This document shows, in pieces, positions 7,325-62,523 of a stretch of 64,000 nt of DNA. Both the position numbers and the translations under genes were made by a program. The stretch is taken from the NCBI GenBank assembly GCA_947561395.2, contig OX387186.1, forward strand, positions 41,745,220 to 41,809,219, written 5' to 3'. The stretch's first letter is position 1. Each line of letters starts with the position of its first letter. Below the pieces are notes generated by a model. That model did no database searches, was not told where the DNA came from, and saw only the letters and a program-made list of their open reading frames with translations. This DNA comes from Buxus sempervirens (taxonomy: Eukaryota > Streptophyta > Magnoliopsida > Buxales > Buxaceae).

Positions 7325-7329
7325 ATAGA

Positions 7330-13494: not shown

Positions 13495-13503
13495 ATAATG
13501 GTC
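13495..13503. repeat. Left 9 bp target-site duplication of the MULE
   Basis: ATAATGGTC directly before the left terminal inverted repeat; identical to 62515-62523. Nine base pairs is the usual Mutator duplication length. Confidence 0.93.
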
Positions 13504-13655
13504 GCGCTCGGATCCTCTGTGAAGCGCATCCTCTGTGAAGCAAAAACATCGTCTGTGAAGCGCAATCCAACGGACCAGAATAAGCGAAGGTTATAATAGT
13601 AATTTTGAGCGCAATACTTAAAAAAGTATTAAAATTCTACTTGGCTCTCTCCTCT
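13504..13655 (+). repeat. Left terminal inverted repeat of the MULE
   Basis: It pairs with the reverse complement of 62364-62514. The first ~36 bases are identical, and most bases match out to ATTAAAATTCT. It contains three tandem near-copies of ATCCTCTGTGAAGCGC, plausible transposase-binding sites. Weaker resemblance may continue to about 13900. Confidence 0.93.
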
Positions 13656-14136
13656 GCAAGACAAAAACGCGCGAAACATTTATATTATTGAACTTATAAT
13701 CTTGTCCACGACCGAACTTTCTCTATTCTTACTCAGACATTTCTGTGTTTACTCCGACATTGGCGGGAAAGGTGCTGTCTTTACTCTCGATTCGAAGAAA
13801 AGGAAGGCAGCTACCACAATTCCACTTCCAAGTGTTAAAGAAGAAAGGACCACCACTCACTCCACCATTATTTGTTTCTATTTAAGACTCCAACAACCAA
13901 TCTAAACCAGGTACATAAACAGATTTTTGGCTTTTCCCATTAATGTCAACCCCCGAAGATGGTGGAACCTTAAATAAATTCAAATGATGGTCGGGCGAAC
14001 AATTCCGCGCCGCCACACATCGACAGGGTACCATGTGGTATCCTCAATGATACACCTGGGGTACTAAAAAAAAATCAGAAGTAAAGGGAGATAATAAATT
14101 TGTAATTACGATTCAACCAATTAAATAATAGGTACC
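13656..14136. other. Left subterminal DNA of the MULE
   Basis: No supported gene. It holds scattered words shared with the reverse complement of 62060-62360 (for example ACATTTCTG and GGACCACCA) and begins to show the GGTACC words typical of the element. Confidence 0.4.
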
Positions 14137-15953
14137 TGTAGACACCCCAAATTGCACTACAAAATGAGAAAATAATGGAAAATATGTAATTGGGATTTGA
14201 AACAGGTCCATAAAGTATAAAATCTGGCCAAACGGGTCATGCCCGTATTTTGTTTACGGTCTGGTCATACCTGCAGTTGATATACGGTCACGGCGTGCCC
14301 GTATTAATAATACGGGCAGGGCGCGACCGTAATATATATACGGGCACGGGGGTCTTTGTGCGAATTTTACCTTTTTGATTTTTGAGCCTTATCTGCACTC
14401 AAATATCTCTCTTGGATAAGCGAATTCTCTTATTTATCTGTTCGAATTATCTCATTTATCCTTGTGGATAAAGGATTGGCATGATCTTGTGTTTAACTCA
14501 AACTGAAACTCTATCTTGCCAAACCTTGGACCAACCATACCCCTGGGTTTGCCTATAAATAAAGGACCTCTCCTCAAGCAAAAGGCCACGAAATTTTGAA
14601 GAATCAAAAGCTCCAAGAGAAGGAAAGGAATCCCTGCTGCTCTGCCTGCTCAATCCAGGTAAGTCCCCTATCCCTTTTATTTTCTGTCTTCAATTCTAGA
14701 AGTAATAGGATCATCTCTATTGCAGTAGAATAAGGCCATATCTGTTTTTGTATCCCTAAACCTGCCTCCAAGTACCTCAAGGGTCTCTCTAGCCGTAAAA
14801 CGTGAAGAAAGAACTAGGGGAAAGGAGAACAGGTGGATCCCTAGAATAGAACCCCATATCTGTTTTTTTCTTTTTTTCATAGAATAAGGCCTTTGATTGT
14901 GTTTGTGTAACCAAACCTATCTCCAAGTACCTCAAGGGTCTCTCTAGCCGTAAAACGTGAAGAGAGAACTAGGGGAAAAGAGAACAGGTGGATCGGTAGG
15001 GTAGACCCCCATGTGCTCTAATTTGTGAGATGTGGCTGTTTTAAATATCCTGATCATGTTTTAATGCTTTTTATGATATATCTGAATGAATAACATGAAT
15101 CCATGATGTTTATAGCATGAGATCCCCTATTTTTGCCAAAATTTGGATTTTTGCCACTTTTGCACCTACAGCACTGTTTTCGTGATTTTTGTGGTCTTAG
15201 GCTAAGATTTTGGATTTATCATGATCAATATGATAGATCTGGATCCAGAAGCCTGAAAATAAATTCTAGGGTTTCATGAGATGATTTTTAAATTGTTTTT
15301 CATTATTGAGAGAAGACCCTATGGTCTCAGTTCTCCCCTTTTGGTGTTTTTCATCAATGTGGATATTTTTGGTTTTGATTTTCAGATTTAATGTGAAATT
15401 TGAGCTTTATCTATGTCTTGGACTATTCAAGTTCAATTTTGAAATATTTTATAAAAATCATATTTTTCTAGATTTCTAGAATTTTGACTTGAAGCCAGAT
15501 TTTTGGATTTTTCACTTTAAATTGATTTTATTCGATTTTATCTCAAATTTGTCTTGATCATGAAACCCTAGGAATGGTATGATCATGTTTGATAGTTCTG
15601 GATCAATCAGACTATTCATATGAAAAAACCATACAATTTTGTCCTTTTTTGTGATTTTGTGTGATTTTTATAGCAAGCTTTTTCCTTTACTTTAAACATC
15701 AACAATACCTGGCAACCACCTTGTGTGGATGAATAGGGGTGCCTAACACCTTCCCATGTTCATAACTTAATCCCCTTACCCATCTCTGGTTGTTTTTTTA
15801 GGAGGGATATTTTGCCCTAAAATTGCCTTTTGTGCTTATTTAATATTTTGGTGTCCATTCACACCTAAATTGAATGGTGGCGACTCTTTGTTTAATATAA
15901 TCCCATGTGATGATTGAGGAAATCATTAGATTGATTTTTTCCCATGTCTCACA
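14137..15953 (+). mobile_element. Solo LTR (Tat-type), 1817 bp
   Basis: It begins TGTAGACACCCC and ends CATGTCTCACA, and is flanked by a perfect 5 bp duplication GTACC (14132-14136, 15954-15958). It is the same family as the LTRs at 34374 and 53191 but more diverged. It carries the CCGTAT/ATACGG palindrome cluster (about 14230-14350), a TATA box in CCTATAAATAAAGG (about 14553), a donor-like CCAGGTAAGT near 14656, and two copies of a CTCTCTAGCCGTAAAACGTG hairpin region (about 14785 and 14938). No internal coding region remains. Confidence 0.92.
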
Positions 15954-16450
15954 GTACCTACCGAAGTAAGCCGCATGTTGGGTGTACTTAAGTCGTAGGT
16001 AGCCCCAATTAAGCCTAAGGTACACGTTAATCTTCAGGTACATGCATATTTAGCCATAAGTACACCCGAGGACAACCCTTAGGTACCTGTAAAAAAAACG
16101 CTCCCAAATAAGCCTTGGGTAACCCCATTAAGCACTCATTACCCACACAAAAAGGCTAGTCAAATAAGAATTCGGTACCCCCGAAATAAACAATGAAGCA
16201 CCCCCAAAATAACCTTAGGTACGCCCAGAAATAAACAGCTGTCAAATAAGCTATTACCACCCCCGAACAAGCCTTAGGTACCCACCGAATAAATGTGAGG
16301 TTCACCACAATTAAGCCTTAGGTACACACCATAAGAACCTGTAGGTACCCACCAAAAAACAGCCAATAATGCCCTAGGTACCCCCAATTAATCATTAGGT
16401 ATCCCCAAAATAAGGCATAGGTACCAAGAAATTTTCGTAGGTATCCCAAA
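15954..16450. repeat. GGTACC-rich degenerate array
   Basis: Fifteen or more variants of TTAGGTACCCCCAAATAAGCC are spaced 25-45 bp apart, each centred on the palindrome GGTACC or a one-base variant. The same word type, in both orientations, recurs at 16740-16870, 19965-20470, 25950-26340, the 26-33.6 kb core, 56820-57480 and 61130-62060, always within the MULE and never within the nested retroelements. The retroelement at 14137 inserted into one such site. Confidence 0.8.
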
Positions 16451-16968: not shown

Positions 16969-19710
16969 GGACAAATAGAGCAAGTCATTTCTACAAGTGG
17001 AAGTGAGCAATTAAGTGGAGATGAGGTCAGTGATGATATAGCGGATATAAATACAGTGCCTAGAGTTGTAAGAGCACTAAGGTTCGATGACGGCGAAGGG
17101 CATACTCAAAATTTTAGGCCATCCGTGGGAATGGAGTTCCCATCTACCGATGAAGCATATAGATTTTACAATGCTTATGCAGCACAGAAGGGCTTCAGTA
17201 TTCGAAAGAGTACGAGATGGAAAAGTCGGAAAGATGGTAAGGAGTTGTGTAGGAAGTTTTGTTGCTATAAAGAAGGGAAGAAGGGAATAGACAAACGGGA
17301 TAAAGATGTGAAGAACCCTAGAAAGGAAACACGTACGGGTTGTTTGGCACACATGAGTGTGAAAGCTCAAGACAATGGCATGTATTTTGTAGCGAGCTTT
17401 GAGGACGAGCATAATCATGAGGTTGTTACCTCAAGTAAGGCCCACATGCTACCTTCACAGAGGAAAGTTACAGAGGCGCAATTAGCAGAAATTGTATTAG
17501 CAGAAAGCAGTGGCATACGACCAAAGCATGCTTTTAAGTTCATGGGTAAAGAAGCCGGCGGAAGAGAGAATTTGGGCTTCCTACCTATTGACCATAAGAA
17601 CCAGATGCGTGACAGATGGAGAGCAATGAAAGTAGGAGACGGATCAAGGTTATTAATTTATTTTGAAGGACAACTGATTGACGATCCGTCTTTCTTTTAT
17701 GCTGTACAAGTTGATGAGAACAATGAAATAACAAACTTTCTGGGCTGATCGGAAGATGCAAGAAGACTACAATAATTTTGGAGATGTCATTTGTTTTGAT
17801 ACAACTTATAGGACAAACGAAGCTCAAAGGCCATTTGCACCATTGGTTGGAGTCAACCATCATAGACGAATGGTAGTGTTCGGAGCCTCAATGCTTTATG
17901 ATGAGACAAAGGCATCCTTTGTTTGGTTGTTTGAAACATTTATAAAGGCAATGAATGGGAAAAGGCCAGTTACCATCTTGACAGACCAAGATGCAACTAT
18001 GTCAGCTGCAATTGCTTTTTTTTTTTCCGAACACCTATCATCGGTTATGTGTATGGCATTTGCACCAAAATTCATTGAAGCATCTCGGTCATGTATTCCA
18101 AACGAGAACCTCATTTTCATCTGATTTCAATCGGTGTATATATGATTACGAGGAAGAGGCTGAGTTCTTGGAAGCGTGGGATACAATGATTCAAAAATAC
18201 GATCTCCAAGACAATGAGTGGCTGAAGGGCATATTTAAGATAAAGGAGAAATGGGCCCTTGTATATGGAAGAACTACATTTTGTGCTGACATGAAGAGCA
18301 CCCAACTGAGTGAAAGCTTCAACAGCCAGTTAAAGAAATACACGAAGTACAACATGGACGTCTCGTGTTTTTTCCAGCATTTTTCAAGGCTTTTGGATGA
18401 TATCCGTTACAAGGAACAGGAAGACAATTATAATATGAGCCAGCGTATTCCAAGAATGATGGCGGAAATCATCATATTAAAGCATGCAATGGAGGTATAC
18501 ACATCGAAGCTGTTTGAGATTTTTCAATCGGAATATGCAAAAGCTCAGAATCTTGTTGTTAATGAGACTTCACATACTGAGACATCCAAAATCTATAAAG
18601 TTAGCTTATTTGATAATCCTCGAGGGCATGTTGTTACAGTTATCACTGAGGATGATATGTTGAAATGCAGTTGCCGTAAGTTTGAATTTGTTGGGATTTT
18701 GTGTAGCCATGCACTCAAAGTACTTGACATGCAAAATATTAAGAGGATCCTAAGTCAATACATATTAAAGCGGTGGACAAAGGATGCAAAGGGTTGCAGC
18801 CCAAGTTATAGTCGTATGTTAGATGAGGAAGTGGCAAAGCTTTCCATGGTTAAACGGTACAGAGAACTTTGCCATAATGCCGTTAAATTGTCAGCAATTG
18901 TTGCCGAAACTTTCGAGGCATATGAATGTGCTGCGAATGGGCTGGCCATTTTAATGACCGAAGTTGGAAATGTGCTGAAGAACAAGCCTCCGAGCATAGT
19001 GGATGGGAATGAAGGAGAGAATTTATCTGAAAATATTCAAAACACCATTGCTGGACTAAAGAGGAAGCCGGGTCGAGGTCGTAGTGGACGTCGACCAAAA
19101 CATTTTTCAGAAAGGGCTCCAAAGAGGAAGAGGAACCATGACATACCAACTCAAACGGCAAATACAATTCAGAGTCAAACTCCACCACAGACACAATATG
19201 CAAGTCAAAGCTCTGGATGGAGTGAGACAATGGTATAATACTTACCTCATACTAATGTATTTGTTTTATCGTATCATGTTTATGGTTTTATGGGGGATTT
19301 TCTGATTTTTTATGAATTTTATCTATTCCATAGGCCTCTCATCAGTTTCGAACAGATGGAGTGGTGACGGGAATGCAATCGAGAACATATCCTATGGCTG
19401 AATATGCAATTTTGTCTCCATTCCAACAACCTGGTACTTACACACAGCTACTGTGGGTATATTTTCTAGAAGATCCTACTCTTCAATACTTTGTGAAGAA
19501 TTTCAATGCTTTGCAATGACATTCCATTAATGACAGGAATCAATGAGTCCAAACATATTCCAAGAATCCAACTCAAGCAATACTGTTGGCCAGAATCAAT
19601 TTGGCTCCTGTTCAAACTCTACTGTAGGGAGATCTCCAGGAGTTTATAGTGGAGATGGGAGCTTATATCGTCAAGAAGGAGATTTAGGTCATTTCCCCAG
19701 AGATTTGTGA
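16969..19710 (+). pseudogene. FAR1/FHY3-like MULE transposase, two frameshifts
   Basis: Would bind the element ends and catalyse cut-and-paste transposition in the nucleus. The main exon follows an acceptor TTGTAG at about 16968 and ends at 19232 (ATG/GTATAA). Smaller exons fit at 19334-19456 and 19537-19710 (stop TGA). Visible in order: FAR1 DNA-binding domain (GMEFPSTDEAYRFYNAYA, then Cys and HNHE residues), MULE DDE core with Asp in ICFDTTY, Asp in ILTDQDATM and Glu in QLSESFNSQ, a SWIM zinc finger (CSC...CSH), and a basic AT-hook-like KPGRGRSGRRPK. Frame is lost near 17738 (just before FWADRKMQ) and again in the T run near 18018-18028 (before the PNTYHRLCVWHLH region). Upstream exons are unresolved. 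Length and domains otherwise match active relatives. Confidence 0.88.
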
Positions 19711-20654: not shown

Positions 20655-21825
20655 CTACGGTGCAATGTCATCGTCATCAAACCCGAGAAGTGGTGGGAGG
20701 GATGGAGTCTGCTGACTGGAGCAAGTGAAGAGATGAGTCACTATCTTCACGGCTTTCTTGACCAACTTCTTTAGTCCACCAACTTCATGAGTGATAGATT
20801 CCTGAAACATTCCAAAATCACGTCGTAGATTGCCAAAATCCTCTCTAATCTCTCCAACGTCTTGGCTAAGCTACGAAAGGCTTCTAACGACGGTCCACGT
20901 CGTGAATATGTCTTGAAAGAGCTGGGTTGAGAAGTGGGTGGACGAGGATGTGATGACGAAGGTTGTGCTGGCTCTGCTTCCTCTCTTTGTTGTGGCTGCT
21001 GTTGGTGCGCCATTGATTCTCCAGATCTCTGAGCCGCGTGACAGTGGTGGTGCAAAGGTGCAAGTTGCATTTGATTTAGATTCATCTGTGAAAAATGTCT
21101 TGAAATAACCATGGAATTAGGAGGTCCACGTAAACCAAACCTCATCCCAATCCTGGTCATAAGATAGGCAAACGGAAGGGCTCTGTGACCAGATGAATGG
21201 ACAACTTGACATATATGCCTGCAAATGAATGTGGGCAGACAAAGGCACGTCCGAGTAATGAGACGGTAGAGAAAGAAGACCATGGCCTTGGTCAGCTCGA
21301 ACTTATTACCGCACCTAGGATAGACATTGAATGTGAAGATGAGATGGAGTATTCTATACGTAGGGAAGAGCTGATTAGCTTGAAGCACAGTCTTTTTCCA
21401 TGGTGCATCAATCCCACACAGACATTGAGTGGCCTCAGCAAGTTCCTTGCGTTGGTGGGTTCAGGAAACGGACCTCTGATCTAGGTATACCCATTAGATC
21501 ACTTATCAAGTCAGGTGTGACAGTATAGGTAGAGTCTGCCACTTTGATCTCAAATGCAGGCTCACGAAAAGGAGGGTTGGACAAGTTATGGGATCCGGCG
21601 TAAAGTTGAGCAACAGTCGAGGAGTTGGCAGCATCCCCCCAATCTAGAATGCCGGACCAACCAACAGCTTCCAGAATCTGTACAATACCATATGGTGCTT
21701 GTAAGCACCCAAATTTTGATCAAACCAAATAAAAGAGAAAAAATGTGCTAAAAGACAGCAGAAAAGTCAAACCCTGAGGGATCAAAAATTGACTTTTTGA
21801 TCAAGAGAAAATTGGTCACCTTGCC

Positions 21826-22050
21826 CTATCTCAATGGATAGAGAATCTCGACGTGGTTCCAACGCAACTGAGTTTGCTGGAATCGGAGTCCGGATGAAGG
21901 ATCTATGGGCCGGTCAAACTTAAAGAGGAGCCGAAAGTTGACTTTTTCTCGAGCCCCGTGCCGAGTGCTTAGCCCTATGCCAATGGATAGAGGACTCCGA
22001 CACGGTTCTAACGCAATTGAGTTTGCCCAAATCGGAGTCCGGATGAAGAA
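21826..22050. repeat. Duplicated ~80 bp segment inside the solo LTR
   Basis: The segment CAATGGATAGAG ... ATCGGAGTCCGGATGAAG occurs at about 21831-21900 and again at about 21980-22048 with several substitutions, about 145 bp apart. Confidence 0.65.
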
Positions 22051-22259
22051 GATGTAAGCAGTTGAAGTTCTAGGGCAGCGTGCTGGAAAACTGCACACGT
22101 GGCAAAAGTCTGCACACGTGGCAAGCAGCAGAGCAAAAAGGTCTCAGGGATTAAATCTGTAATTACCCAAATCAGTGAAAAATATCTCAATGGTAAAGCT
22201 GCAGATATCCAAGGGTATCAGGGACTAGATCCATAAGCATCAAAACTTGAGAAAATATC

Positions 22260-22405
22260 CCAGGGACCAATCTGTAAATATCCAAAAGTATCAGGGACTA
22301 AATCTGTAAATATCAAAAGTATCAGGGACTAAATCTGTAAATATCCAAAAGTATCATGGACTAAATCTGTAAAAATCCAAAGTTCCAGGGACCAATCCAC
22401 AAATA
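22260..22405. repeat. Tandem repeat, 32-33 bp unit
   Basis: Four to five copies of a unit containing GTATCAGGGACTAAATCTG and TAAATATCCAAAA. Diverged copies extend back to about 22195. Confidence 0.8.
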
Positions 22406-22466
22406 CCAAGATTTGCTCATGATTGATGTCCCCTATGGGCATGCATGGGCATCATCCATGCATGCA

Positions 22467-22470
<4 letters not shown>

Positions 22471-22524
<54 letters not shown>
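22471..22524. repeat. CT microsatellite
   Basis: Uninterrupted (CT)n of about 26 units inside the solo LTR, with a shorter run near 22627-22645 and CATGCATG words around it. It explains the Ser/Leu-rich open frames here. Confidence 0.9.
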
Positions 22525-22526
<2 letters not shown>

Positions 22527-25500
22527 CCCATGATCATACATCATCATTCATACATGCATCCCCTCTCTCTCATGGTTGATGGGCATGCATGTGCATCATA
22601 CATGCATGCCATCCATCCATCCATAACTCTCTCTCTCTCTCTCTCCCATAATTGTGTCCCCCATGCATGCACACACATCACATGCATGCATACCCATACC
22701 ACCCCACTATAAAAAGCCCAAGCCCCCATACGTATGGGGGGTTGAGCATATTTTTCTCCCACCAATCTTCTTCTCCATGCTCCTTCCCTCCCATCTCTCC
22801 CAAGCTCTCTTGGTGTCCCACAAGTTCATCCCATCTCTAACCCCCTCTAAGCTCCCAAAAACCCCCTAGGATCACCTTCAAACCCTTCCCCATCTCCTCT
22901 CCTTCCACTTGCCATCAAGGAGGAATCAAGGAGGTGTTGTTGGAGCCCAAGAAGAAGGCTCCAAGGTGCTGTCCAAGCCTTCAAGAGGCTTCCACATACA
23001 CCAAGGAAGTTCACTAACACCAAGGTAAGCTTCCTAAAACCATTTTGTATGACATAAATGAATCTAAGGGTAATGTGAGCATGTTTGTTACATACACTGT
23101 TTCTTCCACTTAAGCATGCTTCCTCCTTCCTTCTTCTTCATTGCTTCTCTATTTCCTTCATAAGATCAAACTCCCATGGTAAGGGGAGATAGGTTGGTCG
23201 AATGGAGGGGAAGGTGAGAGCCCTCTTAGTGTAAGGAAAATCATGTTAATGTCTTCACTTAATGTCTTACCATGCTTTCATGTTATGATTTTATGGGAGA
23301 GAATGTTCCCCCCTCTTTCTCTCATGTCTAATGTATCCCTTTAATCCCCCAAGTCCCTTCCTTTTATCTGCCTTCAAGCTAACTTCACGTGCAATATTTC
23401 CTATGCAATATAGTTGTATGGATTAATGGATTGGCACACACACAAATATCACACCTCATAAGCATCTCCACCATAATCTTTTGTCCACTTTTCTTATTCA
23501 TCTTTAGGTCCACTTGCATGACCATTCCCATGTTGTGTGCACAAAGGTATCATGTGTGTGCATGAAACCCTTAGGACACTTGCATAGGTCTTCCTCTAAG
23601 TTACTTTATCTGCATGTACACATTCCAAGCACACACTCCTCACCTCAAATACATGATAGGTCATTCATTAGCACTGCCATATATCCTTCAGTATGAGTAG
23701 GGGTGTGCACACCCTTGAACCATGATACGGGGTATGTTTGGAGCACCCCTTTGGTTTAGTTGGTATTAACTCTACATGCTTGCTGTTTTTTTTATGGAAT
23801 TAGAAACCAAAACAGGGACTCTTTGGTCCCTGTTTAGTCCTTGCATATGGTCCAAATGGGAGGAGGCAACTTCAATGCCTCTCCCTTCCTTTGCCTTGCT
23901 GTAAAATCAACCCAAAAGAGATCGAATGGGGTGTTCCCCTCTCCTCTGAGCCACTGTGGGCTCAAATAAGGGCCCACACGATTACCAGAACCTCGTAGGA
24001 GACCCAAGAAACCAACCCCATTGGAAAAATCCAAAAAAATGGATTTTTTATGTTGATCCGGCAACTCAGGCCGAATCAACAGAGATCTGTTTGTAACCGG
24101 CGAAGAATGCTAGATACACTGTCCTGTGTGCGTAGCCGGCATCTCAGGCCGGCTACACTGCCAGATTGCCTTTTTTGCTATTTTGAGATATTGTGTTGAT
24201 TTCTTTGGTTTGTTTGTTCAATCCGGGTCAACCGGAAACCCAAGATGGGCCATGGACCGACCCAGTCCAAATCGATTTCCGGTGGGCCTTCCAACGGGGC
24301 CCATCAAGCCCGACCAACTTAGTCGTACTTAAATAAGACAATTAAAAAGAATTGAGTGGGCCAGACCCTGTGAGGCCCTTCAAAGCCCAACTGGGGCAAC
24401 ATGCATGCTTAGATCTAGGCTTGGTTTGGCCGAGACCATGGGCAAGGCCTGTCGGGCCCACTAAGCCCATTGAACCAAACAAGTGTAGGGTTTCCAAAAC
24501 CCTAACTCAAGAAGTCTTGGGCTTTCAAGCCCAAGCCCAGGTAAAGGGCCCCAAGCCCAAAATCTGGCCCATTTTGTCACAGTTAAGAAAGATAATCTAA
24601 AATCACTTGGCAACCCACTGTGTGGCCCACTCACGAGCCCACAAAGCAACCCAGACTCATCTTTTGCATGGAAATCAAATTTAATCAAACTTGGAATTTA
24701 AATAAAATCAATTCACTTGAACCAAAGCCCAAAGGGCCTCTCAGGTTAGTCTGAGGCCCACTAAGGGAGATGTGGGCTGGTCTTAGCCCACCAAGGACCG
24801 CGGGCCTTCCAACGGGGCCCGCCCAATCAGACTCACACCACTTTAAGCTAAGAAAGATAAAACCAAGTAAAGGGACCCACACCACTTTGGCGGTCCCGCC
24901 AGACTTAACCAAAATTGAATGCTGGATTAGGAAACGGGTGAGTAAGAGACCAACTGAGTTGACTCAAACCAGGGAAACTTATGGGACCCGTCACTTGACG
25001 GGGTGGACTGGGGTGTCTACGGACTTCCCCAGACCGCAACCGAGAACCTACTTAGAATCTCAAGCCGCAGACCGCCTAATAGAAAAACCTAGGCACCCAG
25101 GTGTCTGCCTGCACCCCATCAGGCAGTGGCGACTCCAACATTCCCGAATTACCCTTTAGGAGGCGTGCCTACCCGTACGACCATGCGCACAGTGCTAAAC
25201 ATGATTTAACAACCAGTTTCTCAACAATCAAGGGTCGCTGCCGAATCTGCTCGGCTTCAGAAGGTGCAGACGATGAATTATCAGGAGAATAAGGCTCCCT
25301 GTGGATGGTAAACTGAGAGGGATTGGGTTCCTCTGTCTCAGAAGGGCTGTAATGAGAGCCGGAAGATAATGAGGGACTTGCAGGTGCAGGAGTCCCATCC
25401 CTTCTCCTCTTATGGTGTATGCTAGAATTCTTTGTTCGAGGTATGATTTTAAAAAATGACAGAGAAAAAAACAATGTTCGACACAACTCACAGTGGAAAC

Positions 25501-48521: not shown

Positions 48522-51408
48522 CTACTGTGCCTCCGCAGATCCATCTCCTCTGCCACGTCCTCTGCCTCGAGATCGTCGACGCCCGAAGACTATCGGCACT
48601 TTATCACGAGCAGAAATACGCTCCCTCCTGCATCCAAAAATGGATTGGATGTCATGCAAATATAAGAATAGAAGTCAAGAGCATAAAAGAAACATACCTA
48701 GAATCAGCTGAAGAAGCAGGGGCAGACCCCGGGAGATCTACGTCCCTAGCAGACTCAAGATCAGGCTCTGCAGGAATAGGCTCAACCATAGGATCGGTAC
48801 CAATAGCAGGCTCAGAAGCTGGAGTCGGCACCTCTGGAACATCAATCATAGATGGAGGGTCTATCAAAACATCAGGAGCAGCAGTCTCTACCACAGGATC
48901 AACAGTAGCCTCCCCCATCACCACGGCCTCCACGGCGGGTTCTACCACAACAGCATCCCCAGCTGACTCCATATCCACAGAGGCCACAGGAGCAATCTCA
49001 GGAACTGGGGCAGACTCTAGCACATCCTCAGCAGCAGGTGCAATATCAGCCTCGATCTCAGGCTCTGTTGCAGGTGCCTCTACCGGACTGGGAGAAGTCA
49101 CGAACTCCACCCGTGCCACAGAAAATACCTCACCCCGAAGATGCATGGGCATAGGTGAAGCAGGTGAAGAAGGGCCGGCTGTGTCCTCCTGAAACTAAGA
49201 AAAAAAATTTCGGTTAGAACAAGACAAACTAATACAAAAGCAGGAATGGAAATAAAAAAGGAAAATAACCTGAGTATGAGATGGACCCGCCTGGTCCTGT
49301 GCATCAGATGGACCCTCCTGGCCCTGTGCTCTGGCTAGCTACCCCCGGAGGTCTAAGATCGTGATATAGAGGGCGTCCCTCTCGGCAATCGCAGCATCAC
49401 GCTGGCGCTCGAGATCAGCGTACTGAGACCAGATCTCTGCCAACTGAGCCTCCTGAAATAGAAAAGAAAGAAGTCAGAAAAATGCTAAGTTCAAATGAAA
49501 TGGAAATAGAAGATCACAAACAGAGAAGGCATACCGTCGTATCATAAGCCCTGATCACTACCCCTCCTATCTCCGTGACTCCACCACGGATATGCATGGG
49601 TGGCATGAGGCACCCAACAGAAGCTCACCTGAACCAGGCATCATAGTCACCCTCCTCTAATAATGTCTCTGCCTCAGTCCAATCTAGGAACTGGGCAGGA
49701 TCTACAGGCATAGGAAGAAAGGATGGGGTAGTATCTGGAGGAATGGCAGGAATCCGCGGCTCTCCTACATGCTGATAGAAAAAGCGCTCGCCGCAATACC
49801 AGATGCTGCCCAGCTGACCAATGAAAAACTGATATCTCTAACGTCTCTGGTCAGGGATGAAAGCATCATCTCTGGCTGCATGCAGGGCCAGCACCTCATG
49901 AATGTCCTCCATCCTGGGGACGAACAGCTGGAAAATAGAATGGTATATTCGGTATGTGATTCAAGAAGAAAAGGAAAAAAGAAAGAAGAGGAATTAATGT
50001 AGATTACCTCATACCAGTATAGCCTGTCCAAGTGGGCCCGGGCGGACCTAGGACGACTCTTTTCAGAGTCATGCTCTACATGACACCATCTACGTGCCAT
50101 GGGATACGTCTCCTCAGACATCGTAGAGGTAGGACGGAAATAGGGTATATAAACCCTAGCAAAAAACTGCAGAAAGAAGAAAAGAGTCAGAGGAATAGAA
50201 AAGGAGAGATAGAAAAAAAGAGAGAAAGAAAGAAAAAGGAAAAAATGATTCACCTGCAAGAAGGGCCAGAAGAATCTGCACCCAACTCCAGCTCCTCTGG
50301 AGGTAGAGAGGCCGCTCACTGATCGGCGCAGACCGGCCAAAATAGTACCAAAAATGAGCGGGCCCCATGCATACCTCCTCGCTCGATGCAGATCCCCCAA
50401 TAAGCTCAGAAAATGAGGACTAACGGAAGTCGTGTCCTCTAGGAAGAATCAGGAGCCCATCATGTACAGAAAAAGGAATCGAAAGGCATACGGGAAAACG
50501 TGATCACCGGCGGCAAGCTAGCCAAACTACCTCGCCCTGAAAGTCTCTCTCAACCATGTCAGAGACAATCTCGCTCTCCCTCTATCCCATGCCTTAGGAG
50601 GCAGCACAATATATCCAAGGTAAGCAGCGATCTCATCAGTCTCTAGCATCACCATCTCAGGAATAACATCACCGATCATCCTAATCCCGGTGATAAGAGT
50701 GAAGTCAGAAGGTCGGATCCTGATCTCAATATCTGGGAAGTGAAAGCTCAACGTCTCTGGGAAGAATCTCTCGAGCAGTGCTGCAATAAGGGCCCGATCC
50801 AAGCGAACATCAGGGATGGTGATGAATAGACCAAAGCCATACAAGCCTAACTCCCGACGGTAGGCCGAACTGTAAGCTCCTATAAATTTAATAAAGCTGG
50901 CCCAGCTCCCTCTGTAATGGGACATCGGATACTCCAAAGGGATATCCGCCCTAATGCACGCTGAGGGATGAGTCCTCAAGCCATGCAAAAGATCAGTATC
51001 CCTAATCTGAGCAGCAATCGCCTCAGGGACCTCAACCCTGGTCCTGGCCTCATCTCTGACACGGCCTCCTCTGCGACCTCCTCTACGGCCCTCATCATGG
51101 CCTATATCTCTGCCTCCACCTCGGCGCCTGCTACGGCTCCTGTCTCTGCCCGAAGCCTCAACTGCCGGCTAAAGAAACAATGGGAAGGAAGAAGGAATCA
51201 GGGTGATGTATTTTGTATTAAATTCAAAAGAGTTAGAGTTTACCTCTGGGGTCGCCTCACGCGAATCCCCAGAAGGGAGATCTGGGATATCAGAATCCGA
51301 ATCTCTCTCGGCCCTCGAAGACGAGGCCACATCAGCAGGATCACGCCTAACCCTCGAAGAGGAAGGCTCATCTGCAGGATCCCTGGAAGCTGATCGAAGG
51401 CGGGCCAT
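48522..51408 (-). pseudogene. Antisense gene 2 of the Tat element (plant mobile domain-like), 7 exons, six stops
   Basis: A plant mobile domain (aminotransferase-like) protein. Exons: 51408-51244, 51168-50254, 50166-50008, 49927-49535, 49452-49270, about 49194-48698, 48627-48522. Phases fit throughout. Features in order: Ser/Arg/Asp-rich N-terminus, an RG-rich stretch (SRSRRRGGGRD), the domain core (ALIAALLERFFPETLSFHF, RPSDFTLITGI, then HRARRYAWGPLIFGTIL), a Pro/Glu/Ala-rich acidic segment and an RG-rich C-terminus (RRRSRGRGRGRGDG). In-frame stops: TAG 50529-50527, TAG 50520-50518, TGA 50451-50449, TAG in exon 4 after DQRR, TGA in exon 4 after DAWFR, TAG in exon 5 after LDLRG. No frameshift is needed. 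Related genes occur in plant retroelements and MULEs; function in the element is unknown. Confidence 0.75.
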
Positions 51409-53190
51409 CTACGGTTCAAACCAGGGAGTTGGTTAATTATTATTGTTAAAATTTTTAATTGCTTAATTTTTATTTTAAACAAGATCAATTGATTGGCAGG
51501 AAGAAGAAAAAATGGAGAATGGAAGAAAGTGCTTCAGAAACTCCCGATCAAATCAAGAATTAACTAAAGGAGTTTATATTTTTCTAAAAATATTTTGTTT
51601 GTCTTCACTTTAAAAATTATATAGAGAAATTGTATAAGAAGTACATGCTTCTTATAGGTTCTCTTTATATGAAAAAAAATGTGTGGATGTTTTAATTTAT
51701 TCCTTGGTATGTCCTAAAGATATCTAATCATTTATTTTACTTGGTTTCAGGACAATCAAAGCATGCTCAAAATGGCACGAAAATTATCTATTCCATGCCA
51801 AGATGTTTAAACATCATGTGAATCAAGGATCGATTCATGCCAAGTCATTAAGTATTCCGCTTCATGGAATAAAATCCAAGTCTAAACATGTATGGCAGCA
51901 CCACAGGCCAAAAGCCAAGATGGAGATAGCACAATTGCACTCAAGACTTGGAAATAAAGATGCTCTAGCAGTTCATAGAGTAGCATTCAAGAACAGATTC
52001 AAAAGAAGAAGTCACTAAGGCTGATGTGACAAAACAACTCAAGCAAAGTATGGTTCATACATATTGGCAGAAGCAATTCCCAGAACTATCACAAATCAGA
52101 TGATTAGTGCAATGATGACCAATGGTTAGATACAACAATTCTAAGCCAGTATTCAGTTGGTCAAAACAGAAAATTGCATGGGACAGCCTCTTGCTTCAAG
52201 AGCATGAGCAAGTCTCGGCCAAATGAATAGATAGAATCAATTCTGGTCAAACATGAGAACCAATACAGGCAAAATAATCATGGAAGTGTTCAAGGCATTA
52301 AACGGTTACAATCTTAGTCATATTCGGATGCTCAGAGAAATTGCAAGGCTTAGTCGAGCAAAAATCATGGTTATAATCTGTTAAGGAATACAAGAAAAAT
52401 GAAAAGACTCTTTGGCATACCTGTTTATGTCGAAAGGAGAACTCAGCAGAGAAAAAAAAATGGAAACTTCAAGCTCACCCACAATGGATGCTCGAAACAG
52501 CAATGAGGAGGCTTGACAGTAGCTCGAAATGAAGAGGACTCGCTGGGGAAACAGGGATTCGCCGGAGGAGAACAAGTTCGCCGGAAGGAGAGAGTCGCCG
52601 GAGAACAACAGGAGTCGTCGGAGATTTGAAGAAGAAGAAGAAGGACCGGAGAAGAGAGTGCGGTCGCGGAGAAATTAGGGTGAAATGCGAGCAGAAGAAG
52701 AATAGGTCGCGGTCGCGGTCTTAAGAAGAGAATAAATTCCGTAAACTCAGTACGGGCTTCAGACGACCGTAAAAGTAATACGGTCCAGTTCGCCCATGAT
52801 CAAACTACGGGTAGCATTGGTCCGTGATACAAATACGGGCAAAGCCAAAAAGTTGCATATTTTATTATTTTCTCCACAATTATCAAAAGATTAGTGTTTA
52901 TATTAGTTGTAAGTTGCAAGGATTGCCACCATACTCACTTTTGTTTAAAAATTTTGTCTCAAATCTCACTTCATAGCCATGAGAGCTCAGTGAGAGGAGA
53001 GAGGAGGATTTGGCCCTTAAGCTGAGGGACTTCTAGCAAATCTTCCACAATCAATTCTGTTTTCCAAAAATCATCCATTTAATCCTTGCAAAGTGCAATT
53101 GATTAGACAAAAATCTCAGAAAGTGCAATTGGTGGGTCTTTTTGCTCTCTGCTTGTAATTGATTCCAATTACCAGCAAAGAGGGGGCAGC
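51409..53190 (-). other. 5' region of antisense gene 2 and U3-proximal DNA
   Basis: On the minus strand an acceptor (ACCGTAG) directly precedes the ATG at 51408. A likely untranslated first exon lies at about 52690-52470: CT-rich, with repeated TCCGGCGA words, ending at a donor-like TTGTGGGTGAG. A CCGTAT/ATACGG cluster at about 52735-52850 lies upstream of it. The intron between is AT-rich and has no other recognisable gene. A purine tract at about 53176-53187 precedes the 3' LTR. Confidence 0.5.
52735..52850. promoter_or_regulatory. CCGTAT/ATACGG palindrome cluster upstream of antisense gene 2
   Basis: Words AGTACGGGCTTC, GACCGTAAAAGTAATACGG, ACTACGGGTAG and AATACGGGCAAAGCC. They are of the same type as the clusters in the LTRs and before gag and antisense gene 1. 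Confidence 0.55.
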
Positions 53191-55000
53191 TGTAGACACC
53201 CCAAATTGCACTACAGAATGAGAAAGTAATAAAAACATATAATTAGAACTTAAAACAGGTCAAAAATGCATAAAAATTGACTAAGCAGGCTTTTCCCGTA
53301 TTTCATTCACGGGCCGGTCGCGCCCGAGATTTCTCTACGGTCAGGTGCGCCCATATTGAAAATACGGTCACCGTTGGACCGTAATTCATTTACGGTCACT
53401 AAAGACTCGTGCGAGTTTTATTCTTCTCTCAATTTCCGAGCTTTATCTTTAGTCCAATATATCTTTAAATGAGCGAATTACGCCTTTTATTCGTTGAAGC
53501 CACCTTGGTTGGCTAGGGATGGCCATTATCTCTGTCTTTCACTCTATCTTAAGGATCAGGATATATCCTTCTGGACCAACCATGCCCCTGTGTTTGCCTA
53601 TAAATAGAGGGCCTTTCCTCAAGCAAAAGGCCACGAAAATTTGAAGTCTAAGGATCTCCAAGAGAAGAAGAGGAACCCCTGCTGCTCTGCTTGCTCAATC
53701 CAGCTAAGTCCCTTTTCCCTTTTATTTTTTGTCTTCAATTCTAGATGTAATAGGATCATCTCTATTGCTGTAGAATAAGGCCATATCTTTTGTATCTAGT
53801 ATTCCTAAACTTGTCTCCAAGTACCTCAAGAGTCTCTCTAGCTGTAAAACGTGAAGAGAGAGCTAGGGGAAAAGAGAACAGGTGGATCCCTAGAATAGAA
53901 CCCTATATCTGTTTTTCTCCTTTTTCTAAAATAAGGCCTTTGATTGTGTTTGTATAACCAAACCTATCTCCAAGTACCTCAAGAATCCTCTTTAGCCGTA
54001 AAACGTGAAAAGAGAGCTAGGGGAAAAGACAACAGGTGGATCCGTAGGGTAGACCCCCATGTGCTCTAATCTGTGAGATGTGGCTGCTTTGAATATCCTG
54101 ATCATGTTTTAATGGTTTTTATGATGAATCTGAATGAATAACATGAATCTATGATGTTTATAGCATAATATCCCCAATTTTTGATAAAATTTGGATTTTT
54201 CACATATTTGCACCTACAGCACTGTTTTCGTGATTTTTGTGATTTTAGGCTAGGATCTTTGATTTATCGTGATCAATATGGTAGATCTGGATCCAGAAGC
54301 CTGAAAGTAACTTCTAGGGTTTCATGAGATGGTTTTTAAATCGTTTTTCACTATTGAGAGAAGACCCTACGGTCTAAGTTCTCCCCTTTTGATGTTTTTC
54401 ATCAACGTGGGTATTTTTGGTTTTTATTTCTTGATTTAATGTGAAATATGGGATATATCTATGTCCTGGACTATTCAAGTTCAATTTTGAAATATTTTAT
54501 AAAAATCATATTTTTCTAGATTTCTAGAATTTGACTTGAAGCCAGATTTTTGGATTTTTCACTTTAAATTGATTTTATTTGATTTTATCTCAATTTTATT
54601 TTGATCATGAAACCCTAGGCATGGTATGATCATATTTGAAAGTTCTGGATCAATCAGACTATTCGTATGAAAAAACCATATATTTTGTCTTTTTTGTGAT
54701 TTTTCATGATTTTTATAACAAGCTTTTCTTCTTTGTAAAACATGAACAATACCTGGCAACCAGCTTGTGTGGATGAATAGGGGTGCCTAACACCTTCCCC
54801 TGTTCATAACCTAATCCCCTTACCCATCTCTGGTTGTTTTTTTAGGAGGGTTATTTTTACCCTAAAAATTGCTTTTGAGCTTATTTAATATTTTGGTGTC
54901 CATTCACACCTAAATTGAATGGTGGCGACTCTTTGTTTAATTTAATCCCGTGTGATGATCGAAGAAGTCATCGGAAATTGATTTTTTCCCATGTCTCACA
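53191..55000 (+). repeat. 3' LTR of the Tat element
   Basis: 1810 bp, very similar to the 5' LTR with scattered substitutions; many are C/T or G/A (for example CCCGTATT versus CCCATATT near 53350). Same TATA, donor-like site and hairpin regions. Confidence 0.95.
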
Positions 55001-56473
55001 AAAAGACTTCCCCGAGTCTATTCGTGCAGGATTTACCGGGAGAGGATGGGATAACCTCTTCACCAACTTCCTGCTCCCATCCCAACACCTAGTATATGAA
55101 TTCTATTCAAACATCCACAACATCGCAGACGGTCCCGCATCCTTCGATACCTCTCTCAGAAGGCAGCCCATCCATGTAGATTCTGATACCATCGCTGGGG
55201 CCCTAGGTATTCCGAGAGTTGAAAATCCTGAATTCCCGTATGTTGATACTCCCTTACCACATTTGCTCAATGAAGTGGCTGCTTGTTTACTGACCACTGA
55301 GAGGGAGGGGGACTATGAGGGCAAAGCTCTGGATTCCTCCAAGTTTACATTTGACACCTCATTCATATACAAAATCCAATGCTCTAACCTTGCGCCGGTG
55401 AGTCATAGATCAACTGTGCCTCCTATGAGAGCACTCTTGCTTTATGCATTGGTCAAAAGGCATTCAATTGATGTTCCCACCATCATGATTTCGTCTATGC
55501 TTGACTGTTTTCTCGATACCAAACATAGGTGTGGACTTCCTCTCGGGTGTACCATTGCAAAGATAGTCAAAATGCATCAAATTGACTTCCCCGAGTATGA
55601 GTTACTTGCTCCCCTTCCTCCTATCAGTACTGCAACATATAATAAGTCCAAGGGGCAATACAACAAGTCTCATCCTCCTCCTCCACCCCTTCCCCCTGTT
55701 CCAGGGGTCCATGCTCCTGCTCCTCCATCTCCTCCCCCTAATGTTTCTATAGGACATGAGCATGATCTTCCTCTCCTGGAGTCTGCTACACATGATCACC
55801 TGTGGAACCTGATATTCCATCCTCATCGGCACCTGCTCCTGCTGCTGCTCCTATAGACCAAACAACTTCTTCCCAATTTCCTCATGGACTCGCATCAATC
55901 CTTTCACAGGTTATGGGCATGCAATGTGAGTTGATGAATCAAACCAAGCTACTTCTTGAGAAACAGGAGACGATGAAGTAGCAGATAAAACAATTGTACG
56001 ATGGTCAGCTTGCATACAAGCATGAAACTGATCGCCACGTTGCTAAGATGGAACATCTTCTTCAGAACATAGAAGGTGACACCTACTATACGAAAAAGGA
56101 CGTACGAGAACTGATTAAGCCGAAGTTTGCACAAATTGACACCAAGTTGAATTGGGTGAGGACAATAGTATGGAATGCTGATGACACACTAAAAGCAGTG
56201 CATGAGAAGCAGATCAGGCTGAACGAGATATATTTGGAGATGCAACAAGACTACAGCCGGGCCATGAAGCACTTTGAATTGGAAAATCAGGAGCTTCACA
56301 GGCTGAATAGGGACAGGAGAGAACAGAGGACAGTTGCCGATGCAGCTTCTCAAGGTGTCGTTGGAGAGCATATTCCTCCAAGTGATGCGGAGTACATTCG
56401 AGATGAACATTTGTTGCTTGAATCCCTTGAGCCTGCACACAAAGTTCCTGATCCAGCAGGGCCTGCCCCATAG

Positions 56474-57799: not shown

Positions 57800-60700
57800 C
57801 TAGGTAGAACTCTTCTTCACAATATCATCCTTCACCGTGTTTTCTTCGTGGAGGATCATCTCACTCACAATGCTTCTTCTGAAGCCCGGAATATCATTCT
57901 ATTCAAAAATAACGAAACTATATTAATAATGTGATCATTTGGAGCTTTTGAAAACACAACTGGATAGGTTAGGAGTTGTAGCGTACCTGCGTGAATCGAG
58001 GAGAAAGTTCTCCTCTCCAGTAAGCGACGAACTTCATGGCGACGAACTTCATGGTGAAGATTCCACAGTCATGGCTACAAAAGATGCGATTACAAGTTAA
58101 TGCTATTAATATCATATCGTAGTAAGGATAGAAAAGAAAGTATAGGTGGAAAATGTACGGGTTGCCTTGCCGAGGAAGCTTAAGAGTCTCTGCTTTCGTC
58201 CTTGGAAATTTGCTTACTAAAACTTCCTTTTCCCATTGCCAAGTGCATATAATATCTAATCCTTTTAGCTGAAATATAAAAATTGATACTTAATAACAAC
58301 ATTAGTGACACAAGAAATTATTAGGCTGATCACTTACCACTCCAGTGAGAACTTTGCGGGTTCTCCACACCTTCATCGAGTTCAAAAAAAATACTTTCTT
58401 CTTATTCATGTCAACAACACATATGTACCAATGTTCTTGCTCCAATATGGGGAAAAACAACTGCATACAAACATATTTATTAGCCCTACCCTATTAAAAG
58501 ATCCCAACAACAATGGTGAGTTAAGCTTACCATTTTGTAGTTGACCACATTCAGTAAGTACGATGGATCAAATTGATCAGTAAGTCTGGCAAGGTCTCGG
58601 TTTTCTTCTGCCTTGCAAAAAGTCTGCAAAGTTATAATATAAGTTCAACAGGAGTATTACAGACATTGTCAAATGATTTTGAAGAATGTCGTAGTAATTA
58701 CCCCAATATCTAACATGAAGAAGTAGCATGGGCCTCCAACCTGCCGTTCCTAGAAATTCAGCATCTGCATGTAGCAATCCAAGATCTACATAGAAAAAAA
58801 TAAAATCTAAGAATCCAAATATTTATGCGATCTGACAAGATACTTTGGTTGTTAGACTCCTACCCAGTTGGTAACCAATTTCTCAGGCTTCAAACACTCG
58901 AACTCACTGCGGGCAATGAAGATATCGAAGAATCTCACCAAAACCTCGCTACATATATATCCCACAAAAGAAACAGTCAAACCATACGCAACAATTTACA
59001 AAGAAACAATGCATAAAACATAAATATGCGAAAGTACGTACTCTGGATTGAGGTCCTCACGGAATGCATAGTTGCATACCGCGCATCCAACATCCACCAG
59101 AGTCCTACTAGAAGATGCCTCCACTGGTTTGCTTCCCTACAAGTTTATTAAAAATTCCAAAAAATGAATATATGTCTGTCAACCTAATTCTAACCGAAAA
59201 ACATAAAACAATTCCTTTAGAAAAACTGAGAACAAACATACCAATGGCTGTATGGCCGGATCTGCAGTGTTCAGATCCAGCAACAACCTAGCCTCCGCAC
59301 GTTGATCATCGCCAGATGGCACCTGACATATATTTCATGTAGGTCACACGATCATTACATTGACAATTTTGCTCTTCAATCTACTATAGTAAAGTTTTAC
59401 ATGAATGGTTGACATGTAATTAGACATCCAATTATATACTACTTACTGTTTGCGTTGGCCTCTCGGTATCGAGCGATTGCTTACTCTTTCTGGCCCTCTT
59501 ATTTTTCTCCTCGGTGATGGTTGTAAAAGGACTCCTTTTTGCCTTGCCGGGCACCTTCATTCGTTTCAATCTCGGAGCTTCAACGGGTTGAAATGGAACG
59601 ATTGACCCTTCATATTCTCCTGCTGTTGGATCCGGGATACATTCCGCCCTAAGTTCAATATCTTCCATCGGCGACACTGGGCAAGGGCCCTCCGGTGCAG
59701 AAGCAACGTTCACTGGAACCTCAAATGGTTCACGTGGACATTCAGGGGCAGAGTAGCTTCGGTAGTCACGAGCATATCCAACAAGCTCGAGAACCATCTC
59801 TCTTAATTCAGCTTTCCCTACTTCAAGATTGCTTATCATCAACTTCAATTTCTCCACATAAACAAATCAAGCCACAAACATTTGCATTTCTATAAGATCT
59901 GGAACTTATAATGAATAATGACAAAAACCGAATTCCATTACCTCCTTCTCCAAAGCCTTCAATCTCGGGGATTCGGCTACCTCACGCTGAAGGGCAGCAA
60001 CTACCTTCGTTAGCTTCTTTATCACTGCCCTCAATTTATCCTGCTAAAACACACAATCAAGTAAAATTTATGTCCATGTACGTATAATGAATATTGATAT
60101 TGAGTACCCCTATTCGAAAATATAAATACAATATAATATAATATACCTTCTTCCTCCCCTTTGATTTATCGGACTCCGGGACATTTTCATATTCAATATG
60201 GTCCGGAGTTTTCATGTCCTTTTCCTTTCATTCTTTCTCCCTCTCCAACACATCCTCATCATTCCACACGGTGATGAGAGGAGCTGTTGCATCCAAGCCT
60301 ATCACGGTCCCATCCATGCGTAAACATTCATAATAGAACATCTGCGATTGAGTAAACATTTCTTCCATTACAATTTAAGCATACCAAATATATGAAATGT
60401 GTGTATAACAATAATTTACATTTAGAAAAACCAAACAACCACCGACATATATTTGGTGCTTCTCCTTGTATCGGCGGATTGCGGCAATGAGCCAATCAAG
60501 AACCAACTTCGACCAGTTGAGGGTACGGAGTCCCTCCATATCCATTACGAGATTTAAGAACTTTGTGCTGGCCTCCGGCTTAGCTTGAGGGCATAAAAAT
60601 GAGCCCAATGCAAGCAATACAAAAAGCCTCAAAAAATCTTCATCCGCCGTCTCCTTCTCTTGCAGTCTTCTCTCCAGCTCTCCTAAAGGTATCTTACCCT

Positions 60701-61040
60701 TATCATCACAATACATTTTCTTTAATTCTGTGAGGTCGTTTTCCACCTCATCGATTTCTATAGTCTCCCCGGCAGAGGTCACCCCCAATATCCGCTGAAC
60801 ATCAGGAGGTGATATATCAAACGTCCTTCCACTTACTTCAAGGCAACATTTATCGGGATCAAATGAAGCCAATAAGGACGCAATGTTGCCCTTATAACAG
60901 TGTTTAATCGTCATATCAAGAAGGCTTCCCAACCCAATTTCTCTAACAGCTAGCCTCTGGGACTCATTCAACCTTTCGATAATTTTTAGCAATCGTTGAG
61001 GAGTACATCTATTGCGAACTCCTTCCCCGCTTGGTGCCAT
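57800..61040 (-). pseudogene. Ulp1-type (C48) cysteine protease gene inside the MULE, 13 exons, two stops
   Basis: Family removes SUMO-like modifiers; such genes are known MULE passengers (Kaonashi, CUMULE). Exons: 61040-60420, 60341-60147, 60043-59942, 59851-59447, 59322-59242, 59136-59042, 58948-58864, 58785-58702, 58623-58531, 58460-58338, 58268-58159, 58074-57987, 57898-57800. All junctions are GT-AG and phases agree, giving about 726 residues. The N-terminal domain (GSLLDMTIKHCYKGNIASLL, ISPPDVQRILGV) is typical of transposon-borne plant Ulp1 proteins. Protease part: FECLKPEKLVTNW, catalytic His in EQEHWYICVVD, Cys in HDCGIFTMKF. The usual Asp (DS) position reads FFLNSM, i.e. Asn. A 15 bp tandem duplication gives MKFVAMKFVA after the Cys. 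Stops: TGA 60230-60228, TAG 58752-58750. Confidence 0.85.
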
Positions 61041-62063
61041 TTATCTACAAATAAATACACAAATTGATAAAAAAAAACTTTGCAATGTGACTATTTACAT
61101 GTGCTATCTATAAAATCAAAATGTAAATTGAAATACGCCTTACGTACCCCACAAATATGCATTTTGTACCCCACAAATAGGCCCCCTAAATTGGTTTACC
61201 TACACCTACAAATTGGCTTACCAAAACCCAATTAAGCCTTAGGTACCCCCAACAAAATAAGGCTTTCGTACCCCACAAATAAGCCTTGGGTATCCCCAAA
61301 TATCCCCCCCCCCCCCAAAAAATGTTCTAGGTACACCCCAAAAATGCCTTGGTACAAACAAGTGAGCCTTAGGTACCAGCCCCATAAGCCTTGGGTAACC
61401 CACCAATTATGAATTAATTGGGGAGGGGAAAGGAATCTAAGCCTTACTTCCCAAGATTTTCATCACGATTAAGTACAGGATTAATCGTGACCTGGCGATT
61501 AGGTGCGGCGATTAATCAGACGACTAATCGCGGATTTGCGATTAACTGTAAGCAGTGAAACATTGTCTCTGTTTCGTAGCGATTAGGTCTCAGGACAAAT
61601 TGCCGAATCACGATTTCAGGAAGTACCTTAGCCTTATATTGGGGATACCTTGGGCTTATATTGTGGGTACTGTAGGTTTAGGGGGTACCTTAGGCTAATT
61701 TTGGTGAGTGGGTTTGGCTTACCATGGGGTACCTTAGGTTTATATGGGAGCTACCTTAGGCTTATATGCGGTACCTTGGGCTTAGAGTGGGGTACCTTAA
61801 TCTGATTTGTGGGGCGTACTTATGGGTTATTTGACTGGGGGTACCTACGCTTTATTTGGCCTGTGAATTAAATGGGGATGTAGCTAATGCTTATTTGGAT
61901 GGTACCATAGGTTTATTTGTTGACTACAAAAATGTTTTTTGGGGAGCTCTTCGGGCGTACCTAAAGCTTAACTCGGCAGGTACCCATCGTTATTTGGAGC
62001 AGTACCTTTGGCTTATTTCGCCTGGTACCCATGGCTCCTTATGTATACATTTGGTCATTATAT
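61041..62063. repeat. Right subterminal GGTACC arrays
   Basis: GGTACC-type words run forward at about 61130-61430 (TTAGGTACCCCCAACAAAATAAGG) and inverted at about 61620-62060 (GGTACCTTAGGCTTATATGGG). They bracket the GATTAATCG cluster, so the whole forms a loose inverted repeat. A (C)12 run lies near 61305. No gene is supported. Confidence 0.75.
61455..61625. promoter_or_regulatory. GATTAATCG palindrome cluster upstream of the protease gene
   Basis: Variants GATTAAGTAC, GATTAATCGTGACC, GATTAGGTGCG, GATTAATCAG, CTAATCGCGG, GATTAACTG and GATTAGGTCTC. On the minus strand the block CTACGAAACAGAGACAATG matches the TGATGAAACAGAGACTTCATG-type block before the transposase. Confidence 0.55.
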
Positions 62064-62363
62064 TATAAAATTAAATTAGGGCTTACAGTCGTCTTTCAAT
62101 GAGGCTGGTGGCTGTCGTGGTGGTCCCTCGCTTACGAAGTTCTTGTGATGGTGGTGGTCCCTTTCCTTCGTCAAGTGGGCGTGCGCGTTTGTAAGAAAGG
62201 GAAACCTCTGTGAAGCAAATGGAGTATGATCCTATCCTTTTCGTATGCGATGAGGATGACGAAGACGAAGAAGGTCCAGAAATGTCGAGTAAGGTGCGGA
62301 CGTGGAGAGGATCCTAAATTAAATAAAATGTTTTGCACGTTTTCATCGAGACGAGGAGATTGC

Positions 62364-62514
62364 CGAGGACAAAGCCGAGGAGAATTTTAATAGTTTTTTA
62401 AGCGTTTCGTTCAAAATTACGCTACTACCCTTCACTTATTCTGGTCCGTTGGATTGCGCTTCACAGACGATGCGTTGCTTCACAGAGGATGCGCTTCACA
62501 GAGGATCCGAGCGC
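62364..62514 (-). repeat. Right terminal inverted repeat of the MULE
   Basis: Reverse complement of the left repeat, with the same three tandem ATC(C/G)TCTGTGAAGC units. It ends CCGAGCGC, directly followed by the 9 bp duplication. Confidence 0.93.
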
Positions 62515-62523
62515 ATAATGGTC
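62515..62523. repeat. Right 9 bp target-site duplication of the MULE
   Basis: ATAATGGTC, identical to 13495-13503. Confidence 0.93.

Follow-up and report, generated by a model that had tools for sequence, protein, structure and literature searches.

The target duplications of Mutator-like elements (MULEs) measure 8-11 bp (PMC6446971), and several described members of the group are large. A survey of grapevine and melon, in which duplications were 9 bp where found, reports grapevine MULEs of 16.2 and 17.7 kb (the 17.7 kb element being the MuDR-like Mutavine-1) together with the Jittery-like Jitvine-1 (11.9 kb) and Jitvine-2 (14.4 kb); some Jittery-like families in both hosts carry a ULP sequence downstream of the transposase (PMC2528002). 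DNA transposition is said to fall sharply with cargo above 6 kb, and the same review places none of the first-reported rice Pack-MULEs above 7 kb (PMC6431247); arthropod MULEs reach 10 kb (PMC13359780). VANC proteins of the VANDAL elements, in which DUF1985 is one of two marked domains (PMC5735166), bind to a 9-bp motif that lies in noncoding tandem repeats and bring about loss of methylation across the whole element (PMC5735166, PMC10398659). VANC6 motifs also occur in an unrelated element, so that motif is not fully restricted (PMC5735166), and a review describes some VANDAL elements as carrying VANC with Ulp1, called KIU (PMC13317346). Here we analyse a 64,000-nucleotide stretch of Buxus sempervirens (contig OX387186.1, positions 41,745,220 to 41,809,219; hereafter the window, to which bare coordinates refer) that holds a 49 kb MULE. 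Neither large MULEs nor Jittery-like MULEs with Ulp1 are unprecedented, and we claim no size record for the full form, of about 20.7 kb, of this element. What is new is a set of noncoding AGGTACC arrays, phased at 22 bp, that are common to the MULE, to a miniature inverted-repeat transposable element (MITE) and to an unrelated repeat.

The 49 kb in the window is a genuine Mutator-like transposon – one element, now a dead copy swollen by nested retrotransposons. Its left end starts with GCGCTCGGATCCTCTGTG at 13504 and its right end finishes with the reverse complement at 62514, a span of 49,011 bp; the two flanks (13495..13503 and 62515..62523; no strand is assigned to features given without one) are identical copies of ATAATGGTC, a 9-bp match with a computed chance probability of 3.8e-6. 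The left terminal inverted repeat (TIR), 156 bp long with repeated TCTGTGAAGC words (13504..13659, + strand), and its partner on the right (62360..62514, - strand) share 87.8% identity across 156 bp. A previous inspection of the letters, which we call the sequence-only reading, had proposed these inverted ends and the perfect 9-bp duplication 49,011 bp apart, and both proved exact; its assignment to the MULEs is upheld by the combination of transposase, 9-bp duplications and long inverted ends. It had further placed a MULE transposase inside (16969-19235 indeed aligns with the frame of a related copy, C1, that carries the MULE domain) and had arrived at about 20.6 kb by subtracting four nested long terminal repeat (LTR) elements, a figure that we recover on removing three TG..CA inserts and one Ty3 element. 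Its count of four genes also holds: a transposase, two Transposase_32 genes and a DUF1985-Ulp1 gene all have open frames in a sister copy, Y (in the case of DUF1985-Ulp1, the first exon). Its description of the element as large for a MULE holds, though MULEs of 14-18 kb have already been published (PMC2528002, Table 4). To this we add that the window copy is dead, and that the intact 20.7 kb form resides in a young sister subfamily.

A search of the genome (676.5 Mb, 247 contigs) with the 18-bp end returned 55 exact matches, and the 32-bp end, allowing up to 3 mismatches, returned 163; the reversed control gave 0 in each case. The 18-bp matches plus 100 of the 163 32-bp matches comprise 115 distinct ends; the older group supplies most of these and the younger group some. 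Among the matches listed, 64 of the 115 ends form 32 convergent pairs less than 160 kb apart and 51 are unpaired; pairs closer than 60 kb number 27 among the same matches, whereas random placement averaged 0.3 and never exceeded 3 (500 trials, with contigs lacking a given length set to 45 Mb). Ends of the younger sister subfamily, GCGCGCGGATCC, match 82 times genome-wide (control 0), and 68 of the 82 fall into 34 pairs less than 100 kb apart (random mean 0.3, maximum 3); 23 of the 34 paired young copies span 20.4-21.5 kb (median 20,778 bp). Most ends are therefore paired, and the family can, as the sequence-only reading anticipated, be searched as a unit by its ends. Flanks were examined for 43 pairs, namely all 32 older-list pairs and 11 of 27 further young pairs. 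Target duplications occur at 35 of them: 24 exact over 9 bp, seven with one mismatch and four shifted or of 8 or 10 bp, these last judged by eye. The remaining eight, including one that matches at 7 of 9 positions, have no clear duplication. By comparison, 552 mismatched flank pairs with fixed boundaries gave no exact 9/9 match and three with two mismatches or fewer. Exact duplications were also found at pair spans of 55, 83.9 and 150 kb, where nested insertions have presumably enlarged the copies.

To look for an empty site, the flanks on either side of the window element were joined and queried against the genome. Paralogs on C3, one near 12.18 Mb and one near 12.56 Mb, align through the insertion point at 83% and 70%; these empty sites read CTCAAGGCAATAATTGTC, with right-flank sequence directly after, and hold a single target copy, ATAATTGTC, one base different from ATAATGGTC. 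In a third flank paralog (L110) the target is degraded. The empty-site test suggested by the sequence-only reading thus passes on loci that are paralogs and not orthologous alleles: a single target copy lies across the join. Ends, duplications and empty site together demonstrate transposition. The C3 sites belong to a cluster, near 12.18-12.74 Mb, of repeated paralogs of the window element's flanking sequence.

The family has burst recently, leaving many near-identical young copies of about 20.7 kb; the statement covers a past burst and not present activity. The burst is recent because the best-scored copies of the transposase open reading frame (ORF) of Y – the best 40 of 388 candidates, Y included – share 99-100% identity across about 2,268 bp. 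Y itself (C15:729103-749861) is 20,759 bp long, is flanked by the duplication TTTATATTG, and has TIRs that are 100% identical over 156 bp. Ten young pairs were examined at their ends: eight have exact duplications, and in eight the TIRs agree at 155-156 of 156 positions; for the remaining two, comparison by position gives 93, which an indel would explain. A search with the transposase protein gave 35 frames without a stop among 61 (the best 61 of 1,249 candidates, old and young). The window transposase region stands at a Kimura two-parameter distance (K2P) of 0.025 from Y.

The frames open in Y are those of the transposase (756 codons), Transposase_32 b (508), Transposase_32 a (614) and the first DUF1985 exon (221). 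The transposase has FAR1, MULE (PF10551, E 5.8e-27) and SWIM domains – FAR1, which is DNA-binding, and SWIM being found in both C1 and Y – and contains the motifs FDTTY, TDQDAAM and SESFN, which we take to be the catalytic acidic triad. Judged by domain content, the element would be classed as a FAR1-type (Jittery-like) Mutator with a full form of about 20.7 kb. In NCBIfam the transposase matches the IS256 family, under its cut-off; weak below-cut-off matches there for Transposase_32 a and the DUF1985 exon were taken as chance. The window gene (16969..19235, + strand) has lost 2 bp and gained 1 bp in comparison with the young copy, and because these two indels break it the window's own frames obtain domain scores for FAR1 and SWIM only; the MULE domain was scored in the unbroken frame of C1 (PF10551, E 5.4e-28). 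Both Transposase_32 proteins of Y pass the Pfam cut-off (PF20167) and are 23% identical to each other; no PDB sequence match to Transposase_32 a was found up to E 0.1. In the window, gene b is split by a TG..CA insert into a 3' part (20659..21696, - strand) and a 5' part (25195..25680, - strand), and gene a by the Ty3 element into its start (34193..34373, + strand) and a remainder (55003..56470, + strand).

The fourth gene is a putative multi-exon DUF1985-Ulp1 (Peptidase_C48) gene, the domains of which were scanned in C1 and Y; the corresponding stretch of the window (57899..61040, - strand; 94.8% identity to the young copy), with its DUF1985 exon (60375..61040, - strand), was placed by alignment. 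The Ulp1 exon of Y, antisense to the transposase, scores 26.6 bits for PF02902 (cut-off 20.7) over a short stretch of 30 residues, and the Ulp1 exons of copy C11 retain His and Cys motifs (HW...VVD and DCG) that are presumably the catalytic residues. No DUF287 match was obtained from the parts of Y that were scanned, nor from three frames across the gene region of C1. Within the family the ratio of nonsynonymous to synonymous polymorphism (pN/pS) is 0.60 for the transposase, 0.79 for the DUF1985 exon, 0.91 for Transposase_32 a and 1.18 for Transposase_32 b, values that are uninformative on selection, as neutral decay probably dominates. Measured against the young copy, the ratio of nonsynonymous to synonymous substitution (w) is 0.47-0.89 for the transposase and 0.20-0.93 for the DUF1985 exon; three of 31 comparisons, those of both Transposase_32 genes included, reach p < 0.05, two of them for the transposase and one for DUF1985.

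The motif GGTACC is distributed unevenly in Y. Gene spans, 8.5 kb in all, contain a single copy (shuffle mean 0.9), whereas 4.75 kb of satellite contain 46 (2.2) and the other noncoding DNA, 7.5 kb, contains 35 (2.4); copies are present in both subterminal stretches and in every gap between genes. For the nested Ty3 element the count is six in 20.6 kb, where shuffles average 1.9 and reach 4 at most; the left flank of the window holds two in 13.5 kb. Distances of up to 140 bp between AGGTACC motifs on the same strand deviate by at most 2 bp from a multiple of 22 in 332 of 426 cases (expected 23%), the distances being pooled over eight related copies and hence not independent. A pair of motifs spaced at 22 bp has 7,462 matches genome-wide, against 33 for the reversed control; the 100 places among the matches listed are all on C1. 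One short element, a 594-bp MITE (L085:4344-4937), combines 11 GGTACC with related 69-bp inverted ends and the 9-bp duplication GGTGCAATA. In the window, AGGTACC motifs lie subterminally on the right (61242..62024), in further groups at 16082-16791, 20023-20221 and 56872-57209, and in a central block (26264..33695) of a satellite built on the palindromes TGTACA/ACATGT. This satellite occupies the middle of the element in six of the seven copies first examined, with a layout that varies between copies. Its palindromic portion in the window (26691-33270) holds 119 TGTACA sites and is rearranged between copies.

A critical issue is what such arrays are for. We favour anti-silencing because the DUF1985-Ulp1 gene coincides with motif arrays that are noncoding, phased and rearranging, and put at roughly 45% the probability that the window holds a dead copy of a FAR1-type MULE whose DUF1985-Ulp1 protein effects VANC-like, sequence-specific anti-silencing at AGGTACC. 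The transposase would bind the inverted ends, probably via the TCTGTGAAGC words, excise the element and reinsert it with a 9-bp staggered cut. The DUF1985-Ulp1 protein would act like the VANC of VANDAL elements, perhaps assisted by the two fast-changing Transposase_32 proteins: it could dock, in the noncoding gaps, on AGGTACC motifs that follow one another at about two turns of the DNA, and docking would lift silencing from the whole element, letting so large an element multiply. Small elements may be helped in trans where they carry related ends and arrays. The binding and demethylation in this scheme are both predicted from sequence. The broader proposal – that a VANC-like, motif-guided system evolved in a FAR1-type MULE, recognizing AGGTACC at some two helical turns and acting in trans on the 20.7 kb form, on MITEs that bear related ends and on the unrelated repeat, which would have gained the arrays – we regard as doubtful; if true, such a trans-acting system would explain the burst of so large a DNA transposon, and the shared arrays would show how unrelated elements exploit an anti-silencing system.

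Several observations weigh against anti-silencing, and some of them lend substance to a quite possible alternative, namely that this is a large MULE with passenger genes in which Ulp1, DUF1985, Transposase_32 and the arrays have no silencing role, arrays and satellite being products of slippage. The DUF1985 exon of Y (E 3.7e-5, 24.2 bits) is below the Pfam cut-off of 35.1. The Transposase_32 genes have w near or above 1 against the young copy (0.96-1.32 for a, 0.68-1.71 for b), as passengers might, yet both keep long open frames in Y. A derivative of 5,965 bp (L082; C4:9141810-9147774) has both ends, an intact transposase frame and a perfect duplication but is without the segment corresponding to 4872-19652 of Y, 11 bp being common to both sides of the deletion junction; it lacks the other genes, which may therefore be dispensable in cis. 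The motif is moreover not restricted to the MULE family, since long 22-bp AGGTACC arrays occur in another repeat (L083:5292-6303; L084:3496-4130 and 6532-7328), the two examples of which can be aligned piecewise, at 71-83%, along roughly 3.5 kb. Neither has a match to Y proteins better than E 0.5, and L084 showed no Pfam domain in the ten frames scanned, nine of them plus-strand. AGGTACC may thus be a generic minisatellite. Motifs are better conserved than spacers (0.68 versus 0.42 in Y outside the satellite; 0.55 versus 0.48 pooled over C1, C6 and C11), although the excess is modest, and anchoring on the motif would itself produce part of it. What speaks against mere passengers and slippage is the avoidance of gene spans by motifs that nonetheless hold a 22-bp phase, and the union of motifs with ends in the MITE.

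That same MITE, and the subterminal position of motifs at both ends of the element, could also be understood if AGGTACC arrays were binding sites for the transposase, with its DNA-binding FAR1 domain, or a transcription or insulator feature, and not sites for an anti-silencing protein. We think this improbable, given that motifs also lie deep inside the element, in the gaps between genes, and that the inverted ends bear a repeated word of their own, TCTGTGAAGC. As to the notion that two ends from different MULE copies were paired by chance, the 49 kb then being no single element, the eight pairs of 43 without clear duplication speak for it. The perfect duplication, the paralogous empty site and an interior order that agrees with other complete copies refute it, leaving a probability close to nil. 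Anti-silencing by the DUF1985-Ulp1 protein remains the reading that we prefer for the arrays.

The nested insertions that account for the size of the window copy were delimited by comparison with other family copies. Three are TG..CA inserts, each a solo LTR or LTR-like: one at 14137..15953, with duplication GTACC and about 86% identity to the LTRs of the nested Ty3 element; one of 3,492 bp inside Transposase_32 gene b (21700..25191, duplication GTGCT); and one of 2,409 bp in the satellite (30142..32550, duplication CGCGC). The fourth is a full-length Ty3 retrotransposon of about 20.6 kb inside Transposase_32 gene a (34374..55001, + strand, limits approximate), with an LTR divergence of K2P 0.021; no exact 5-bp target duplication was found at its limits. 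This Ty3 element gives several RNase H-like matches; its plant-mobile-domain/DUF7745 ORFs are antisense. Beside the MULE is an NB-ARC/LRR resistance-type open frame of 959 codons (7915-10794, - strand), which together with the plant-type domains points to a flowering plant as host.

There exist a number of parallels with known elements. Jitvine-1, Jitvine-2 and Mutavine-1 are likewise large MULEs, from a survey with 9-bp duplications and with ULP in some Jittery-like families (PMC2528002). The Buxus element differs from Jitvine in its 156-bp ends with duplications, its two Transposase_32 genes, its arrays, its young burst and its size of about 20.7 kb; for the Jitvine families, Table 4 of that survey gives no inverted-end or duplication length (PMC2528002). 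At the level of titles and abstract openings, in a library without most subscription papers, we found no MULE larger than about 20.7 kb and no Jittery element with VANC-type anti-silencing. It is of note that a four-gene element of this size multiplied recently despite the drop reported for cargo above 6 kb (PMC6431247). KAONASHI MULEs, which carry KIU genes, resemble it in having an Ulp1 gene reverse to the transposase (PMC2528002) and are linked to VANC in a review (PMC13317346); KI-MULEs are, however, described as non-TIR with mudrA, whereas the Buxus element has 156-bp ends and is FAR1-type. Both extra genes of Y share Transposase_32 (PF20167) with the Athila ORF1-related proteins reported in sunflower Athila (PMC11728184): the Athila domain belongs to an LTR retrotransposon, that of Buxus to a MULE.

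The likeness to the VANDAL/VANC system of Arabidopsis is that of a MULE with a DUF1985 protein, a putative one in Buxus, and short motifs in varying noncoding tandem repeats (PMC5735166). The Buxus element is distinguished by a FAR1-type transposase, long inverted ends, an Ulp1 domain, the motif AGGTACC and no DUF287 match. If its arrays dock a self-encoded protein, then VANC-type anti-silencing extends beyond VANDAL, a proposition testable with one protein and one motif.

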